From assembly GCA_028712155.1 (NCBI GenBank), contig JAQTQO010000005.1, forward strand, positions 1-58,777: a stretch of 58,777 nucleotides of DNA. The letters are read 5' to 3'. The DNA is from Patescibacteria group bacterium. GTDB taxonomy: Bacteria; Patescibacteriota; Patescibacteriia; Buchananbacterales; GWA2-38-13. Shown here piece after piece: positions 3,053-24,964 of the stretch. The position numbers were made by a program, and so were the translations under genes. The notes beneath the pieces are model-generated. The model was not told the origin of the DNA and ran no database searches. It was given only the letters and a program-made list of their open reading frames with translations. The first letter of the stretch is position 1, and each line of letters begins with the position of its first letter.

Positions 3053-3823
3053 ATGCAAAAATTGTTCATCAAGAATCGCCAGGAGCAAAAAATTTCCGTT
3101 ATCGTGGAGGAGGCAACACCGGCGCGCGGGCTGGCGTTTGTGATGCACGGGCTGGGCGGGTTCAAGGAGCAGCCGCACCTGCAGGTGATAGCCGACGCTT
3201 TTTTGCGCCACGGATACACCGTGGTCCGTTTTGATACCACCAACACGCTTGGCGAAAGCGACGGCACGTACGAGCAGGCGACCACCACCAATTACCTGCA
3301 GGATTTGGAAGATGTCATCGTGTGGGCGTCGCAGCAGCCGTGGTACCACGAACCGTTCTGCCTGGTCGGCCACAGCCTGGGCGGAATTTGCACGGCGCTG
3401 TATGCTCAACGCCATCCCAGGAAAGTCAAAGCCCTGGCGCCGATTTCTACCGTCGTGTCGCGGGAACTTTCGGTGGCCGCAAGCGGTGAAGAGGCGATGG
3501 CGCTCTGGAAGAAACACGGCTGGAAAGTCGAAGAGAGCAGATCCAAACCCGGAGTGATGAAGCGGCTGCCGTGGTCGTTTGTCGAGGACGGCATGCAGTA
3601 CGATTTGCTGCCGAAGGCCAAGGCGCTCACGATGCCGGTGCTGCTTGCAGTCGGCGAGCTCGACGAGACCACGCCCGCGCCGCACCAAAAGATTTTATTC
3701 GACGCGCTGCCCGGCAAAAAGGAGCTGCACGTCATCAGGGGCGCGCCGCATACTTTTCACGACCCAAAACATCTGGATGCGATCAAGAAAATATTTGACC
3801 GGTGGATTGTGAAATGGTCTTGA
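3053..3823 (+). CDS. alpha/beta-fold hydrolase
   Basis: 256 residues. The nucleophile elbow is GHSLGG (Ser near residue 105), the acidic residue is in GELDETTP near 204, and the catalytic His is in GAPHTFHD near 227, giving a complete Ser-Asp-His triad. The FVMHGLGGFKEQ motif supplies the oxyanion region. The protein resembles serine aminopeptidase S33 or short-chain esterases; the substrate is unknown. It is cytoplasmic, with no signal peptide. The end overlaps the likely start of the next gene by a few bases, suggesting coupled translation. Confidence 0.85.
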   Translation: MQKLFIKNRQEQKISVIVEEATPARGLAFVMHGLGGFKEQPHLQVIADAFLRHGYTVVRFDTTNTLGESDGTYEQATTTNYLQDLEDVIVWASQQPWYHEPFCLVGHSLGGICTALYAQRHPRKVKALAPISTVVSRELSVAASGEEAMALWKKHGWKVEESRSKPGVMKRLPWSFVEDGMQYDLLPKAKALTMPVLLAVGELDETTPAPHQKILFDALPGKKELHVIRGAPHTFHDPKHLDAIKKIFDRWIVKWS

Positions 3824-4434
3824 ACCCTATGCAGCCAGAAAAACAGCACGCCGGCCGCGACTACGGCATCCCGGATCGCAGCATCGGTTTTTGGGCAACC
3901 GGAATTTCCGATCTCGATAAAGAAGCGGTTGCGAAGTTGCGCACGCTTTTGGCCCCGATTTCGGAGTACTGCCTGCCGGTATTTCAGCATCTGCCGCACG
4001 TCACCTGCCGGTACCTTGGCTACCATGACGAGGTGCCGTACCGACGCGTATCCCAATTGATCCCAAAGCTGCAAGAGATCTACCGCCGGTATCTGCCGCT
4101 GAGCTTCACCATTGAGGGAGTTTTCCGCAGCTGGGAACGGAGCGACGATTGGCGCAAAAAGCTCATCATGGCCCGGGTGGTGTCACCCCAGCTGCCGGAA
4201 ATACACCTCCGGATACTGGAAATTACCGATGGTTTTGGAAAGTTCACGGCCATCGAAGGGGAAAATTTTTCACCGCATATTTCGCTGGCGTATCTGAAAG
4301 AGGATTTCAAAAATTGTCCGCCGCGCGCGGTGAATGATTTCATTGAACATTTGCATTTTTCCCCCATCGCATGCCGGGCGCGGGCGGCCTACGTCCGCGC
4401 CGAGGACGGTACCGCAATGAAGAAAATCGTCTGA
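3814..4434 (+). CDS. 2H phosphoesterase (LigT-like)
   Basis: 206 residues. Two HxT/S motifs characteristic of the 2H superfamily are present: HVTCRYLG near residue 66 and HISLAYL near 150. Such proteins hydrolyse 2',3'-cyclic or 2'-5' phosphodiester bonds in RNA or nucleotides, so a role in RNA end metabolism is possible. The ATG at 3814 overlaps the upstream hydrolase stop by 10 nt; an ATG at 3829 avoids the overlap and is an equally good start. No clear Shine-Dalgarno supports either. Confidence 0.75.
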   Translation: MVLNPMQPEKQHAGRDYGIPDRSIGFWATGISDLDKEAVAKLRTLLAPISEYCLPVFQHLPHVTCRYLGYHDEVPYRRVSQLIPKLQEIYRRYLPLSFTIEGVFRSWERSDDWRKKLIMARVVSPQLPEIHLRILEITDGFGKFTAIEGENFSPHISLAYLKEDFKNCPPRAVNDFIEHLHFSPIACRARAAYVRAEDGTAMKKIV

Positions 4435-4445
4435 TATTATTTGCG

Positions 4446-4690
4446 GCAAATAGAAAAGGGCCGGATGCGTGAGAGGCCGCTTCCGACCCTACCCCGTGTT
4501 GCCCGCATTGGTCGTTCGGATCGTTCAGATCCACCGTACTTCGCCTCAGTGGGCTTAGTAACTCCTGCCTGGTGCTTGACCTGGCTCCACTTCTTTTTCT
4601 AAAGGCGTCGTGCGCGCTGCATGGTTGCAGCGCGAACTGCCCGCCGAACGGACCTGATGTGGGCTCGATAGGAAAGACCGATAATTGTAT
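4446..4690 (-). ncRNA. candidate small RNA unit F (tandem array)
   Basis: Minus-strand unit. Promoter TTGACA (4719-4724), 16 nt, TAAGAT (4697-4702). The terminator stem GGGTCGGA/TCCGGCCC (4458-4489, one mismatch) is followed by TTTTCTATTT. The predicted RNA is about 245 nt. No ORF has a Shine-Dalgarno and ends before the terminator. Its -35 box lies just beyond the T-run of unit E. Confidence 0.5.
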
Positions 4691-4726
4691 TACGGTATCT
4701 TACAGAGGTTGAAATAGTTGTCAAGG

Positions 4727-4800
4727 GGAAAAAAAAGAGGGTCGTTGGTACGTGCCGCAGACCCACCCAATTACTCCCGAACACCTTTCGGCATGTTTTG
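4727..4800 (-). ncRNA. candidate small RNA unit E (weakest of the array)
   Basis: TTGACA at 4830-4835 on the minus strand, but the -10 box (TCAGTT, 4807-4812) is poor. The end is a 5-bp GGGTC/GACCC stem with a large loop (4739-4764) and a run of eight Ts (4729-4736). The predicted RNA is about 75 nt. A 7-codon ORF is the only reading frame. It may be a degenerate unit. Confidence 0.3.
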
Positions 4801-4875
4801 GCTCCCAACTGAACTCAGGTTGGCAGAAATGTCAATGCTTGTGAATGTTTTTGAGTCTAGGCGTTTAGGAAAATA

Positions 4876-5152
4876 GTCAAAAAGAAAAGGGGTCGCAGAT
4901 ACGAGACCTTTGACCCCTCGATGATGTCCAGGCTCCCAGGAGTTGTGTTTTGGCGTCGTCGCCAGCTGTGCACTCGCAAGGCGACTGCTTCCTTCCGTTC
5001 TCCGGATGAGAAGAGCTCCGGCGCAGGTCCGGTCCAAAAGGGTGCACCTCGACGGTGCTAGATCCACCACGGTTGTGGAGACCTCTTTCCCTCTTGCCGA
5101 AGGGACTCGCCTTTCTCCGCCGAAACCTCAGGTAACCTGATACATCGTCTAA
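4876..5152 (-). ncRNA. candidate small RNA unit D
   Basis: Excellent promoter TTGACA (5182-5187), 17 nt, TAAAAT (5159-5164). The terminator AGGGGTC/GACCCCT (4888-4918) is followed by TTTTCTTTTT. The predicted RNA is about 275 nt, with local hairpins ATCAGG-TTA-CCTGA and GCACC-GTCGA-GGTGC. No frame with a start, Shine-Dalgarno and stop fits inside. It contains GGAAGGAAGCAG, reminiscent of SRP RNA, but the pairing partner of that motif is absent. Confidence 0.55.
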
Positions 5153-5229
5153 GGCTCCATTTTATGGTCGGCAGTTATGTGTGTCAACGGTATTCTGTGC
5201 GCGATCTGTGTATAGGCTGTGGAATACTT

Positions 5230-5513
5230 GTGAAAAAGAAAAGGGGTCCAACCTAAAGGAAGGACCCCGGACGTGGTTGGCGCAATGCCTGAAAGCTCGC
5301 GGGAAAGGCCCCGCCTCCAGACCCAGCGGGTCACGTGGGAGGTCGCGCCGGGGCGCGAAAGGGGATGGCAGTCCTCGTCCTCGTGGATGAGGGAAACGGA
5401 AGTGCACCTGGATGGGTGCCATGGTGTTGCTCGCGAAGCGAGCGTCAGTGGCTACCGAGCCGGTGTTTCCGTTGTATCCGCGATTGCTTAAGGTCACGCG
5501 AACCTACGTCGTA
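5230..5513 (-). ncRNA. candidate small RNA unit C
   Basis: Promoter TTGACG (5543-5548), 17 nt, TACCAT (5520-5525). Terminator GGGGTCC/GGACCCC (5243-5268) with TTTTCTTTTT. The predicted RNA is about 280 nt. It contains a GCACC-CATCCA-GGTGC hairpin of the same design as in unit D. Open frames run through the terminator and lack Shine-Dalgarno sequences, so coding is unlikely. Confidence 0.55.
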
Positions 5514-5589
5514 GGGGCTATGGTAATACCGCGGGGTTATCGCGTCAAGGGTGAAATGTGTACAAGCTGTGGAAAATTTTTTGGCTGAA

Positions 5590-5755
5590 ATATAAAAAGG
5601 GGTGATCGCCGAAGCTCTCACCCCGCCGCGCTGCATTTCCCCTTGGTGTCACGTGGATAGTGACGTGGCCGGTCGGCCTATCAGGGGCTCCGATAAGTAT
5701 CGGAGAAACCTGCCCTGCTCCCAGTGCCGCTGTGTTCAGCAGGTAGCGCGCAGGC
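5590..5755 (-). ncRNA. candidate small RNA unit B
   Basis: Promoter TTGACT (5784-5789), 16 nt, TACACT (5762-5767). Terminator GGGGTGA/TCACCCC (5599-5624) with a T5 run. The predicted RNA is about 165 nt with hairpins CTCCGATA-CTTATCGGAG and GTCAC-TATCCAC-GTGAC. No plausible small protein. Confidence 0.55.
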
Positions 5756-5796
5756 AATTTCAGTGTAACTCTTTTCGGCCGCCAGTCAATTGGTTG

Positions 5797-6038
5797 AAAG
5801 AAAAAGAAAAGGGCCGCAGAAGTGGTTCCGCGGCCCGGGTAACGCTTTGCTTTGGTTCCGGCAAAAGACATTTGCCTCTGCAAGTCGGGGACTGCAGGGA
5901 CGTGTCCGCCTTTTGAAGGCGGAAAACGAATTAGGCGGGAAACCGCGGTTGATGAGAGGTAAAACCTCCCGTTGTTGCCGAGCTTCCGCTTCAAGGCCCG
6001 TCTTCGCGGGATGGCAAAGACTGATAAGCGTTACCGTG
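5797..6038 (-). ncRNA. candidate small RNA unit A (first of the array)
   Basis: Promoter TTGACG (6069-6074), 18 nt, TATACT (6045-6050). Terminator GGGCCGC/GCGGCCC (5811-5836) with a long T/C-rich tail. The predicted RNA is about 240 nt with hairpins GGAGGT-TTT-ACCTC and CCGCCTT-CAAA-AGGCGG. No coding frame is supported. Its terminator lies 8-15 nt before the -35 box of unit B. Confidence 0.55.
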
Positions 6039-6109
6039 GCTGTCAGTATAGTTTGAGGTTTTGGTGCCCGTCAAGTATGGTTATAGAGCCGGTTTCAAAA
6101 AAGTTTCCC

Positions 6110-6183
6110 TGTCATTCCGGCCCCAGAGCCGGAATCCAGTAACAAGTTCGATCGACTGGATTCCCGCTTTCGCGGGAATGACA
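6110..6183. repeat. palindromic repeat, copy 3
   Basis: TGTCATTCCGGC at one end and GCGGGAATGACA at the other; two hairpins (GCCCCAGAGC and CCCGCTTTCGCGGG) are joined by a linker. It precedes mutM. Confidence 0.75.
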
Positions 6184-6247
6184 AATCGAGGCAGAATGGA
6201 ATTTTGAGACCAGCTCCACATAACAAGATATATTTGTTCCAGATTGT

Positions 6248-7108
6248 ATGCCGGAATTGCCGGAAGTTGAAACCATCCGTCGCGAGATTACCCGTCGCAT
6301 CGTCGGAAAATTTTTTGCGTCGGTGGAAATTCGGGTGCCCAAAATGGTTAGCCCGCCGGTGGCGCGGTTTGCCAGCCTGATACGCGGCAAAAAAATTCTT
6401 GCCATCGGGCGGCACGCAAAAATGCTGACGTTGTCTCTTTCGGGAAAAAAATTTTTAGTGTTCCACTTGAAGATGACGGGGCAGCTGGTGTTTGTACCGC
6501 AGTACGGAAAAACGGTTTCCGGCGGCCACCCGATTCCCAACGTCGGCGTACTGCCCAACAAGTTCAGCCACGTTATTTTCCATTTCCGCGATGGCAGCAC
6601 GCTGTATTTCAACGACCAGCGCAAGTTCGGCTGGGTGAAATTGGTTGATGACGGGGGTTTGGAAAAAATGTTTGCGCCGCTCGGAGTTGAACCGTTATCA
6701 AAAGATTTTTCGTGGGAGAAATTTTCGGCATTGGTGCATCGGTACCCGAATCGGATGATCAAACAAGTCATTACCGATAATGCGCTGATGGTCGGTGTCG
6801 GAAACATTTACGCCGATGAGAGCTGCTTTTGTGCGCGTGTGCGGCCGACACGGCGGGCTCGGTCGCTGCGCCTGGCGGATGTGAAGAAACTTTATCGCTG
6901 CATTCCGCGTGTGCTCAAGTTCGCCATTGGTAAAAAGGGGACCACCAGCGACGCATACCGGCGGCCGGACGGGCGGGACGGCAACATGCTTGCGTATTTG
7001 AAAGTCTACGGCCGCAAAGGGAAGCCGTGCCGGCGCTGCAAAACCCCGATCGTCAAAACGGTGGTCGGCCAGCGCGGCACGCACTACTGTCCCCGGTGCC
7101 AGAGATAA
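6248..7108 (+). CDS. mutM: formamidopyrimidine-DNA glycosylase
   Basis: 286 residues, the usual Fpg length. The N-terminus MPELPEVETI supplies the catalytic Pro2 and Glu3; the conserved Lys is in GRHAKML (Lys58), followed by HLKMTGQL. The helix-two-turn-helix and the C-terminal zinc finger with CRRC and CPRC near residues 260-284 are intact. The enzyme excises oxidised purines such as 8-oxoguanine and then cuts the abasic strand (base excision repair). It stands alone on the plus strand between two groups of minus-strand cassettes. Its stop codon abuts the terminator of the opposing gene. Confidence 0.95.
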   Translation: MPELPEVETIRREITRRIVGKFFASVEIRVPKMVSPPVARFASLIRGKKILAIGRHAKMLTLSLSGKKFLVFHLKMTGQLVFVPQYGKTVSGGHPIPNVGVLPNKFSHVIFHFRDGSTLYFNDQRKFGWVKLVDDGGLEKMFAPLGVEPLSKDFSWEKFSALVHRYPNRMIKQVITDNALMVGVGNIYADESCFCARVRPTRRARSLRLADVKKLYRCIPRVLKFAIGKKGTTSDAYRRPDGRDGNMLAYLKVYGRKGKPCRRCKTPIVKTVVGQRGTHYCPRCQR

Positions 7109-7138
7109 AAAAATACCCCGGTCTAGCCGACGGGGTAT
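7107..7138 (-). terminator. terminator of the 7165-7533 gene
   Basis: Stem TACCCCG/CGGGGTA with a T7 run on the minus strand. It lies directly against the mutM stop codon. Confidence 0.85.
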
Positions 7139-7164
7139 GGAACGGGGCGAATGAAGTGCTGTTG

Positions 7165-7533
7165 TTAGGGTGCAGGTTTTTGGTCTTCCGGTGGGTGTGG
7201 AAGTCCCTGTTTCAGTTCGTAGAGACCGTCACAGATGCGGATGGTGAAGAGGTAGAACAACCCCAAGAGTGTACCGGCCGCCAGGAAGGCGGTTTCTTCG
7301 TTGTCATGCTTGACACTCACGGCGATGCAGATGATAAGCGCTATGGTCGCCAGGAGCATGAAAACGGCGGCTACCACGCCCCATCGGGTGTGCTCGCGGT
7401 CAAGCGAACGATACTTTCGGTACTTCTCTTCCTCGGCTTTTCTGATGTTCTCTTCCATCAGCTTTGGACCCTCCACGGGGTCGTCCAAAGGATCCGGAGA
7501 GCCGCGATCCATAGTCGCCCGGGGCGTTTCCAT
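7165..7533 (-). CDS. small two-helix membrane protein, unknown
   Basis: 122 residues. The first 50 are hydrophilic and charged (EENIRKAEEEKYRKYRSLDREH, probably helical), followed by two membrane helices near 52-73 and 83-100 and a proline-rich tail. I do not recognise the family. It is a single-gene cassette: promoter TTGACA (7616-7621)-17-TACACT (7593-7598), Shine-Dalgarno GAGAAAGG before the ATG, and a terminator at 7107-7138. The leader GAGAAAGGCACNATCATG is nearly identical to that of the next cassette. Confidence 0.7.
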   Translation of the reverse strand: METPRATMDRGSPDPLDDPVEGPKLMEENIRKAEEEKYRKYRSLDREHTRWGVVAAVFMLLATIALIICIAVSVKHDNEETAFLAAGTLLGLFYLFTIRICDGLYELKQGLPHPPEDQKPAP

Positions 7534-13263: not shown

Positions 13264-14631
13264 ATGACCCGCAAACGTTTTTGGAAGCTCGGCAATCGCG
13301 TCTTTAACACGCATTACTTTGACATTGATAAGGATGGCGACCTGATCGTGCGCGAAGGCAACAACCAATACAACCTGCGTTTCTTGGCACAGAAGTTCGG
13401 CACGCCGCTCGAGGTGGTGTTTCCGTTCATTCTGGAAGAACGGCTGGAGGACCTGATGGACCTGTTCGCCGCGCAGATCAAGGCGCTCAAATACCGCGGA
13501 AAATTTTTCTACCACTACCCGATGAAGGTCAACCAGAATAAGGAAGTGGTGATGCCGCTGGTGTCGGAAGGCGCTAATCTTGAGGTGAGCTCGGCCAACG
13601 AACTGTGGCTGGTCAAGCGGATGTGGGAGCAGGAGACATTCAATCCGAAGATCCGCGTCATCTGCAACGGGCCCAAAACGGACAAGTACATCCGGCTGAT
13701 TGACGAGCTGCAGCACCGCGGGCTGACGGTCATCCCGGTGATCGAGGGACCCAACGAAGTGTCGGTGTTCGGGTCGTCCCGGTTCGAGGTGGGCGTACGC
13801 GTGGATATTCCACCGTCGGTTTCCGTTCAATCGCGCTGGGACAAAACGATCGACAAATTCGGTTTTTCCGAAGCCGAATTGATGAAGCTCGGCCGGATGC
13901 GGAATCTGCAGATTTTGCACTACCACATCGGCTCGCAAATCGAACGCCAATCGGATATCCTGCACCCGCTGCGGTACGCGCTGCAGGTCTATGCGAAGCT
14001 GCGAAAGATCAACCCGACGCTGGATACGATCGATATCGGCGGCGGCATGCCGATTCCGTACGACCGCAAGGTCGGGTACGCGGTGACCGGCTTGGTGCGG
14101 CAGATGCTGACGATCATGCGGGAGTATGCCGACCGGCACCGGATTCCGCACCCCAACCTCATTGCGGAATGGGGGAGATACATGGTGGCGCCGGCGCAGG
14201 TAACCATTTATAAGGTGATTGACGTCAAGGCGATCGCCAAGGGTACGGCCAAAAAATGGTATGTGGTTGACGGCAGCTTCATGAACGATCTGCTGGACAC
14301 CTGGGCGATCCACCAGAAGTGGCACGTCCTGCCCGCGAGCAACCTGCACGCAAAAAAACTGGTCAAGACGTGGATGGCCGGCAGTTCCTGCGATTCCGAT
14401 GACAAATACACCGGCCAGAACAGCTACGTGCTGCTGCCCGACTTCGACCCGAATACCACGCCGGAGCCGTTGTATGTCACGTTCCTGGATTCCGGTGCGT
14501 ACCAGGACCCGCTCGCATCCCACCATTGCCTGCTGTCGTCGCCGGCCAAGCTCATTGCCGAGAACGGCCACATCATCGTTGCGCGCAAGCGCGAATCGGC
14601 GGAAGAAGTGGGGAAACTGTTCGGGTGGTAA
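13264..14631 (+). CDS. speA: short arginine decarboxylase-like PLP enzyme
   Basis: 455 residues. PLP fold-type III decarboxylase: the PLP lysine is in YHYPMKVNQNKE (about residue 88), with HYHIGSQIE near 220, DIGGGMPIPYD near 258 and the substrate Cys in SSCDSDDKY near 380. These blocks match biosynthetic arginine decarboxylase (SpeA) better than LysA, but bacterial SpeA is about 630-660 residues, so this form lacks the inserted helical domain and part of the C-terminus. The product would be agmatine for polyamine synthesis. Substrate choice is inferred; no other polyamine genes are nearby. Confidence 0.75.
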   Translation: MTRKRFWKLGNRVFNTHYFDIDKDGDLIVREGNNQYNLRFLAQKFGTPLEVVFPFILEERLEDLMDLFAAQIKALKYRGKFFYHYPMKVNQNKEVVMPLVSEGANLEVSSANELWLVKRMWEQETFNPKIRVICNGPKTDKYIRLIDELQHRGLTVIPVIEGPNEVSVFGSSRFEVGVRVDIPPSVSVQSRWDKTIDKFGFSEAELMKLGRMRNLQILHYHIGSQIERQSDILHPLRYALQVYAKLRKINPTLDTIDIGGGMPIPYDRKVGYAVTGLVRQMLTIMREYADRHRIPHPNLIAEWGRYMVAPAQVTIYKVIDVKAIAKGTAKKWYVVDGSFMNDLLDTWAIHQKWHVLPASNLHAKKLVKTWMAGSSCDSDDKYTGQNSYVLLPDFDPNTTPEPLYVTFLDSGAYQDPLASHHCLLSSPAKLIAENGHIIVARKRESAEEVGKLFGW

Positions 14632-14637
14632 ACAATC

Positions 14638-15318
14638 ATGAAAACAATCGTTTTTTCTCTCGGCGGGTCGCTGATCGCGCCCGACGGCATTGACACGAAG
14701 TTTCTCGCCGGATTCCGGCGGGTGATTTTGCGTTTTATCGCGAATGGCAACCGGGCGATCATCATTTGCGGCGGGGGAGACACGGCGCGGACGTACGCGA
14801 AGTCGGCGCGGACAGTGAACCGTTCATTGACGGCCGAACAGCTCGACTGGCTTGGCATTCAGGCGACCAAGATCAATGCCTGGCTGGTGCGCGACGTGTT
14901 CGGTCACACCGCCGAATATGCCTTGCAGTATGACCCGACCGTGAGGATCCGCACCGCAAAGCGCATCATCGTCGGTTCAGGCTGGAAGCCCGGCTGCAGT
15001 TCGGACAAGGATGCGGTGCTCGCGGCAAAAACTTACGGTGTCAAAACGGTGGTGAATCTTTCGAATATCGACTACGTGTACGACCATGACCCGCGGAAAT
15101 TCAAGTCGGCGAAACCCCTGCCGTCGCTGACCTGGGCGGCGTTCCAAAAAATAGTCGGCAGCACGTGGCGCCCCGGGGCGCATGTGCCGTTTGATCCCGT
15201 GGCATCCCGCTTGGCGCGGCGCCTCGGTATCGCGCTCGTCATTGTGCGCGGCAGCAATTTGGCAAATCTGAGATCTCTTTTGAGCGGGAGAAAATTCCGG
15301 GGCACGCTGGTTTCCTAG
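14638..15318 (+). CDS. pyrH: UMP kinase, archaeal type
   Basis: 226 residues of the amino-acid kinase fold: FSLGGSLI at the start, CGGGDTARTYA near 41 for ATP/phosphate binding, NLSNIDYVYDHDPRK near 140 and FDPVASRLARRLG near 184. The shortness and the pattern resemble the archaeal-type uridylate kinase, which phosphorylates UMP to UDP, rather than the usual bacterial hexameric PyrH (about 240 residues). It follows the decarboxylase after 6 nt. OMP decarboxylase at 23496 would supply UMP. Confidence 0.8.
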   Translation: MKTIVFSLGGSLIAPDGIDTKFLAGFRRVILRFIANGNRAIIICGGGDTARTYAKSARTVNRSLTAEQLDWLGIQATKINAWLVRDVFGHTAEYALQYDPTVRIRTAKRIIVGSGWKPGCSSDKDAVLAAKTYGVKTVVNLSNIDYVYDHDPRKFKSAKPLPSLTWAAFQKIVGSTWRPGAHVPFDPVASRLARRLGIALVIVRGSNLANLRSLLSGRKFRGTLVS

Positions 15319-24791: not shown

Positions 24792-24940
24792 TTGACATTT
24801 TGCGGTATCGTGCTAGACTGTATCAGTATTTCCGCAGACCGCAGGTGCAATTAAGCGTAAATTGCCGCAGACGATATGTGGCAAGCCTGCCGAGGGAATC
24901 CTCGTTTTTGTCTGCGGTTACTCCGGAGACATTTTTTTAT
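24792..24940 (+). promoter_or_regulatory. rplJ promoter and L10-type attenuator leader
   Basis: Promoter TTGACA (24792-24797)-16-TAGACT (24814-24819). In the leader, GTCTGCGG (24910-24917) can pair with CCGGAGAC (24923-24930; one mismatch) to give a hairpin followed by T7, a terminator. The same GTCTGCGG can pair instead with either of two upstream CCGCAGAC copies (24832-24839 and 24865-24872), forming an antiterminator. CCTGCCGAGG is typical of L10 leaders. Feedback by L10 is inferred from known leaders. Confidence 0.75.
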
Positions 24941-24964
24941 TCCCCACGCTACTTGCTTGAAACT

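Follow-up and report, generated by a model that had tools for sequence, protein, structure and literature searches.

An ordered array of predicted structured noncoding RNA genes, two with DnaA-box-like operators, in a Patescibacteria genome

Layout of the gap between the 2H phosphoesterase and MutM genes

We analyzed a 58,777-nucleotide stretch of DNA (the window) that constitutes contig C2 of the draft genome of an uncultured Patescibacterium of 1.44 Mb (72 contigs, 96% complete, 1279 genes). The best relatives of its MutM protein in a species-level collection, found in Candidatus Uhrbacteria and Komeilibacteria, are only 47% identical, and this organism is therefore without a close relative in collections. 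The lineage described here is represented by a single genome. Positions 4446-6074 of the minus strand lie in the gap between genes for a 2H phosphoesterase and for MutM, both of which were assigned by a profile scan of flanking proteins. A synteny comparison around this gap showed that relatives lack the 2H phosphoesterase gene. The features of the region are given below, where promoters are from a promoter scan, fold z values are relative to shuffled sequences, p values refer to the helix that closes an RNA, and RNA starts assume a transcription start site 7 nt past the -10 element.

3802-4434, plus strand: 2H phosphoesterase gene (PF13563)
4448-4690, minus strand: predicted RNA F, ~241 nt, fold z -4.0; terminator 4489-4448 (-20.3 kcal/mol)
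4697-4724, minus strand: promoter F, TTGACA-16-TAAGAT
4729-4847, minus strand: doubtful unit E, ~115 nt, fold z +0.5; terminator-like hairpin and T-run 4764-4729
4854-4880, minus strand: weak candidate promoter E, TTGACT-15-TAGACT, overlapping terminator D
4879-5152, minus strand: predicted RNA D, ~272 nt, fold z -3.8, with a closing helix (p 0.013); terminator 4917-4879 (-12.5 kcal/mol)
5159-5187, minus strand: promoter D, TTGACA-17-TAAAAT, 11 of 12 consensus bases
5194-5237, minus strand: DnaA-box-like 9-mers with 11-bp phasing upstream of promoter D, TTTTTCACAag TATTCCACAgc CTATACACAga, with a weak fourth 9-mer, TCGCGCACAga
5233-5513, minus strand: predicted RNA C, ~280 nt, fold z -6.3, with a long closing helix (p 0.003); terminator 5268-5233 (-17.1 kcal/mol)
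5520-5548, minus strand: promoter C, TTGACG-17-TACCAT
5555-5576, minus strand: two DnaA-box-like 9-mers with 11-bp phasing upstream of promoter C, TTTTCCACAgc TTGTACACAtt
5588-5755, minus strand: predicted RNA B, ~165 nt, fold z -3.7; terminator 5624-5588 (-15.6 kcal/mol)
5762-5789, minus strand: promoter B, TTGACT-16-TACACT
5801-6038, minus strand: predicted RNA A, ~239 nt, fold z -6.9 (-5.5 without the terminator), with a closing helix 6035-6026/5847-5838 (p 0.007); terminator 5836-5801 (-20.5 kcal/mol)
6045-6074, minus strand: promoter A, TTGACG-18-TATACT
6248-7108, plus strand: mutM gene

RNA F is directed toward the 2H phosphoesterase gene and faces its 3' end. At the other side of the array, between unit A and mutM (window 6113-6186), there is a palindrome of the dispersed-repeat type, GTCATTCCGGC...GGATTCCCGC...GCGGGAATGACA.

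Promoters and terminators form an ordered chain

A first-pass annotation of this DNA had described the gap as a minus-strand array of tandem units, each with a sigma70-like promoter and an intrinsic terminator, and had rated the promoter of unit E as poor. Our promoter and folding-energy scans found both elements in place for units A to D and F, with promoters beginning at 6074 (A), 5789 (B), 5548 (C), 5187 (D) and 4724 (F) of the minus strand that match 9 to 11 of the 12 sigma70 consensus bases. Overall, six promoter-like sites were observed in 2.5 kb as compared to 1.2 +/- 1.0 in shuffled sequence, and five of these six are the array promoters. A simple terminator scan gave no excess (5 observed versus 3.6 by chance); a folding-energy scan of the whole genome placed terminators precisely where units A to D and F end. 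The low rating of unit E holds, as its promoter at 4880 lies on the T-run of terminator D and its fold is no stronger than that of shuffled sequences.

Across the five units A to D and F, promoters and terminators alternate strictly with no gap and no extra site. When all contigs were scanned on both strands (1.438 Mb, with genes called by hexamer coding score and several contigs masked), this chain of five was the longest in the genome, the maximum elsewhere being three. There are two runner-up chains of three units, one on contig C14 that is a true second array and one on contig C21 that consists of protein genes. Note that promoter-like sites are seven times denser in intergenic DNA than within genes across the whole genome, and the pattern is therefore meaningful in this organism. 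The density of promoters in the array is merely ~2.4 times the intergenic mean of the genome, and it is the ordered chain, not promoter density, that sets the array apart.

The units are predicted to fold strongly and contain no coding signal

Units A to D and F have fold energies 3.7 to 6.9 standard deviations below those of dinucleotide shuffles, and these remain 2.5 to 5.5 standard deviations below shuffles when the terminator is removed. Sampled coding controls gave z values mainly from +1 to -2.2, and among 22 control windows of 240 nt a comparable level was observed in just two, one located inside the array and one at -3.1. A, C and D also show pairing of their first 45 nt with the last 45 nt ahead of the terminator beyond what is seen in shuffles, which forms the closing helix listed above; such end-to-end pairing is not above shuffles in B (p 0.13) or F (p 0.25).

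Regarding coding potential, no frame in the array scores as coding by hexamer score and no closed open reading frame within A-F exceeds 11 codons, which agrees with the earlier view that the gap holds no credible protein gene. Hexamer gene calls also show no gene downstream of A-F on the minus strand. Pairwise comparison revealed no mutual sequence similarity among A-F, and no striking k-mers are shared by the RNAs. The units are thus of common design with little common sequence, as had been described, and their status as a 'family' rests on layout. A GCACC-loop-GGTGC hairpin, previously pointed out as shared by C and D, does exist in both, but the overall similarity of C and D is not significant (p 0.19). 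The genuine similarity of these two units is a stretch upstream of their promoters.

A second array and other RNA elements occur in the same genome

The first-pass annotation included neither the second array nor the DnaA-box-like sites ahead of promoters C and D. The second array comprises four units, U1-U4, located between murB and secA on the plus strand of contig C14 (L020 3596-4990). These units follow the design of A-F and run opposite to the flanking genes, with the U2 promoter being weak. U1 and U3 fold strongly, and U2, U4 and a further C14 unit at 7065 fold only weakly better than shuffles. U3 (about 4141-4547) and U4 (about 4586-4982) are full-length tandem paralogs (nhmmer 1e-6) that differ in their closing helix, with ACCCUGGGAC/GUCCCAGGGU replaced by ACCCUGGGGUUUG/CAAACCCCAGGGU. 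An RNAalifold consensus of the pair has both sides changed in 17 of 65 consensus pairs, and the minimum free energy pairs are retained beyond permuted substitutions (p 0.03 from U3 to U4 and 0.001 in the reverse direction). These values, which come from two sequences only, are suggestive of compensatory change that keeps the base pairs in part. No similarity between the two arrays was detected by nhmmer or with a covariance model built on domain 1 of U3/U4; this model also had no match in class genomes, and the murB-secA interval is without an array in the order relatives that were inspected.

Several additional observations were made on C14. Each of U1-U4 has one boxA-like motif, GCTCTTT or GTTCTTT (CGCTCTTT, AGTTCTTTGTGAAAA), at L020 3644, 3886, 4345 and 4795. 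These resemble transcription antitermination sites but are rejected as a general explanation, with none being present in A-F. In both paralogs, a conserved GACCCGCU of U3/U4 (L020 4331-4352) is able to base-pair with GGUGGGUC, the 3' arm of the terminator at 4534-4541; as a possible antiterminator, this pairing was not significant in a shuffle test (p 0.14-0.23). Finally, a lone noncoding unit of ~285 nt at L020 7065-7375 (within 7030-7380, plus strand) adjoins a Mur ligase gene that is murC as judged by its place. The noncoding units of C14 are located among secA, murB, murC, murG and an ftsW-type gene.

Classic RNA regulation is also in use in this genome, as shown by the presence of a T-box-like leader (identified by eye), of riboswitches for SAM and FMN, and of an L10 leader (L013 on contig C8, 10324-10652; L032, 10366-10481; L044, 3991-4196; and window 24814-24946). 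A group I intron (RF00028) is located at a tRNA-like sequence in L064 (contig C58, 1501-1890). In L077, two neighboring small genes have a duplicated hairpin leader (13910-14010 and 15010-15100; GAGATCAGC...TTTGCCGTAG...GCTGATCTC...GTCAGTTTTTT) with arms that are altered yet still pair, and which looks like an undescribed attenuator.

Phased DnaA-box-like sites precede promoters C and D

The stretch shared by C and D upstream of their promoters is composed of DnaA-box-like 9-mers, which resemble binding sites of the replication initiator protein DnaA. We defined the box as TTATNCACA and allowed up to one mismatch in counts. Boxes at C and D are mostly one to two mismatches from this sequence, with the second box of D having two and the fourth being weaker, and the run at D begins within the T-run of terminator C. 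Phased box triples occur at only two places in the genome, promoter D and the dnaA promoter (TTATGAACAtg CTATGCACAat TTGTGCACA). At least two boxes within 75 bp upstream were found at 4 of 400 intergenic promoter-like sites as compared to a shuffle mean of 0.19 (maximum 2 in 200 shuffles), although DnaA boxes are short and degenerate and the motif was tested only after it had been noticed, which somewhat weakens these statistics. The four sites are promoter C, promoter D, the dnaA promoter and the promoter of the noncoding C14 unit at 7065, which has a perfect box TTATCCACA and a near box TTATGCAAA ahead of it. Promoters A, B, F and U1-U4 have no such operators; among the array units, the arrangement of a DnaA-regulated promoter, with boxes upstream as at dnaA, is found at C and D only.

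Related sequences are also present elsewhere in the class. Specifically, 21 of 381 class genomes contain the 18-mer TTCCACAGCYTRTAMACA with at most one mismatch, and in five of these (L267, L268, L269, L282 and L283, around position 1501) an 18-mer of the TTCCACAG-C-TTATAAACA type is located upstream of dnaA, which was assigned by eye from its translated N-terminus. In genome G038 (L270), the 18-mer precedes the TTGACA promoter of a gene that is RlpA-like by eye. Because the same 18-mer is upstream of dnaA in relatives, and because a phased triple is present at the dnaA promoter of this organism, the repeat before promoters C and D is most likely a DnaA operator. RNAs C and D are, on this sequence evidence, probably under DnaA control.

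Searches for families, homologues and protein partners

An Rfam scan had been proposed as a check on the array, and with Rfam 15 there was no match to A-F at the gathering score or with permissive filters, the sub-threshold matches being chance-like. One of these, RNA C against a coronavirus 5'UTR model, was rejected (E 0.011, far under the gathering score and confined to two short hairpins). The first-pass annotation had also proposed a comparison with related genomes, and conservation was not borne out, as no homologue of A-F was found in the 381 genomes of the class. Phage and plasmid records searched for the array yielded nothing, viral contigs with the U3/U4 core motif showed nothing notable, and a class-wide scan for packed terminator-promoter pairs gave no second cluster among the matches listed.

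Known types of RNA were considered as well. A Y RNA identity was rejected as the Ro60/TROVE protein was not found in the genome. Sequestering sRNAs of the CsrB/RsmZ type, which carry repeated ANGGA motifs, were rejected given that no CsrA was found in the genome and that GGA is abundant in D alone. Repeat-spacer guide arrays (CRISPR, TIGR) were rejected as there are no regular near-identical repeats, just short promoter and terminator similarities. As regards retrons, whose RNAs are linked to a reverse transcriptase, the scan of flanking proteins detected no family of this enzyme.

Discussion

The explanation that we favor, with a probability of roughly 0.55, is that the region consists of five (perhaps six) independent genes for structured noncoding RNAs that act in trans, two of which are probably controlled by DnaA. 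Alternatively, each unit could be a regulatory leader (riboswitch or attenuator) whose gene has been lost, with an aptamer-like fold followed by a terminator. The closing helix beside the terminator does have this aptamer-plus-terminator layout, and the genome contains SAM and FMN riboswitches. However, each terminator is followed by the next promoter rather than by a same-strand gene, antiterminator pairing in the nine units tested was not above shuffles (p 0.14-1.0 apart from a value of 0.03 at one arm of A), and no Rfam riboswitch matched even with permissive filters. On the first two of these counts the leader was rejected as a candidate, and we consider it improbable. We give still less weight to the possibility that the units are genes for short peptides or the remnants of decayed genes, with leftover promoters and terminators, which is the least probable of the alternatives. 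Minus-strand open frames of 100-150 codons do span the units (stop-free at window 4270-4534 and 5162-5994, for example 149 codons at 5545-5994), but they read through terminators, are non-coding by score and contain no closed frame of more than 11 codons. Intact promoters, terminators and folds are disfavored under decay, and the original judgment that decay is a poor explanation gains from the fold strength, the closing helices of A, C and D, the lack of open reading frames and the second array with its paralogous pair.

The five to six phased DnaA-box-like 9-mers at 5194-5237 and 5555-5576 could also indicate that the locus is mainly a DNA element, either a site for DnaA titration or reactivation (datA, DARS-like) or part of an origin, with the RNAs being incidental. 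This is quite unlikely, as dnaA and its own set of phased boxes lie on a different contig, there is no sign switch in GC skew at 5 kb of the window, and the boxes are placed exactly upstream of two promoters; it would also leave A, B, F, their folds and the second array unexplained. Somewhat less unlikely than any of these, but still doubtful, is that the units are ordinary Hfq-dependent antisense sRNAs acting in trans that have multiplied in tandem like Qrr or LhrC. The tandem placement, the individual promoters and terminators and the true tandem duplication of U3/U4 on C14 are as expected for such sRNAs, but Hfq was not found in the genome, A-F are not mutual copies, and the RNAs are long and heavily paired with little free seed.

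For the favored reading of independent RNA genes, we infer from the anatomy of the units that each would be transcribed from its own sigma70 promoter, ended at its own intrinsic terminator and folded compactly. Pairing of the 5' end with the pre-terminator stretch in A, C and D would protect the RNA ends. Binding of DnaA to the putative operators would cause the output of RNAs C and D to vary with the level or the nucleotide state of DnaA, and thus with replication. The RNAs would then act in trans as stable structures, by protein binding or by Hfq-free pairing through loops; trans action is favored because there is no downstream gene and no antiterminator, and because Hfq and CsrA were not found. 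These RNAs may have a link to the cell cycle. A broader proposal, which we offer as speculative, is that in this Patescibacteria lineage clusters of structured RNAs, specific to the lineage and driven by DnaA-type operators, serve as a cell-cycle layer linking the initiation of replication with other functions, with DnaA directly controlling noncoding RNA genes. In that reading, one cluster sits among peptidoglycan and division genes.

Regulatory RNA of Patescibacteria seems little known, and a text search of the literature consulted found no paper connecting this group with structured noncoding RNA. Two RNA arrays without relatives in a 1.44 Mb genome, including two units with the operator layout of the dnaA promoter, offer a tangible way into the subject. 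Should DnaA control noncoding RNAs, replication control in reduced genomes would have an RNA arm. The arrays also suggest that noncoding RNA genes can emerge quickly, in clusters and unseen by family databases.

Comparison with known systems

Sibling or multicopy sRNA clusters such as Qrr, LhrC and the tandem pairs of Neisseria consist of recognizable copies of one sRNA (PMC4211561). Like the array, they comprise several sRNA genes, some arranged in tandem, with a separate promoter and terminator for each gene. In contrast, A-F share no sequence, whereas U3/U4 of the second array do fit this pattern. The ornate orphan RNAs OLE, ROOL and GOLLD are conserved families of large RNAs from single genes (PMC12286853); they too are elaborate bacterial folds first found through sequence analysis, but the RNAs predicted here are 165-280 nt, lineage-specific and in tandem. 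DnaA-regulated promoters include those of dnaA, nrdAB, gcrA and others, and a text search of a review on this subject found no mention of small or noncoding RNAs (PMC8203912). Promoters C and D resemble these in having boxes that adjoin sigma70 promoters, phased as at the dnaA gene of this organism, with the difference that the genes would be noncoding RNAs. Tandem sRNA genes, as copies, and DnaA-regulated genes are both known, and the closest idea is CcnA of Caulobacter crescentus, a single 182-nt RNA that is presumably activated by CtrA and whose gene is at the origin with weak DnaA boxes (PMC8959179). CcnA is likewise a folded noncoding RNA tied to a cell-cycle regulator; the present case differs in that phased DnaA-box-like sites precede the promoters of two array units, at a distance from dnaA.
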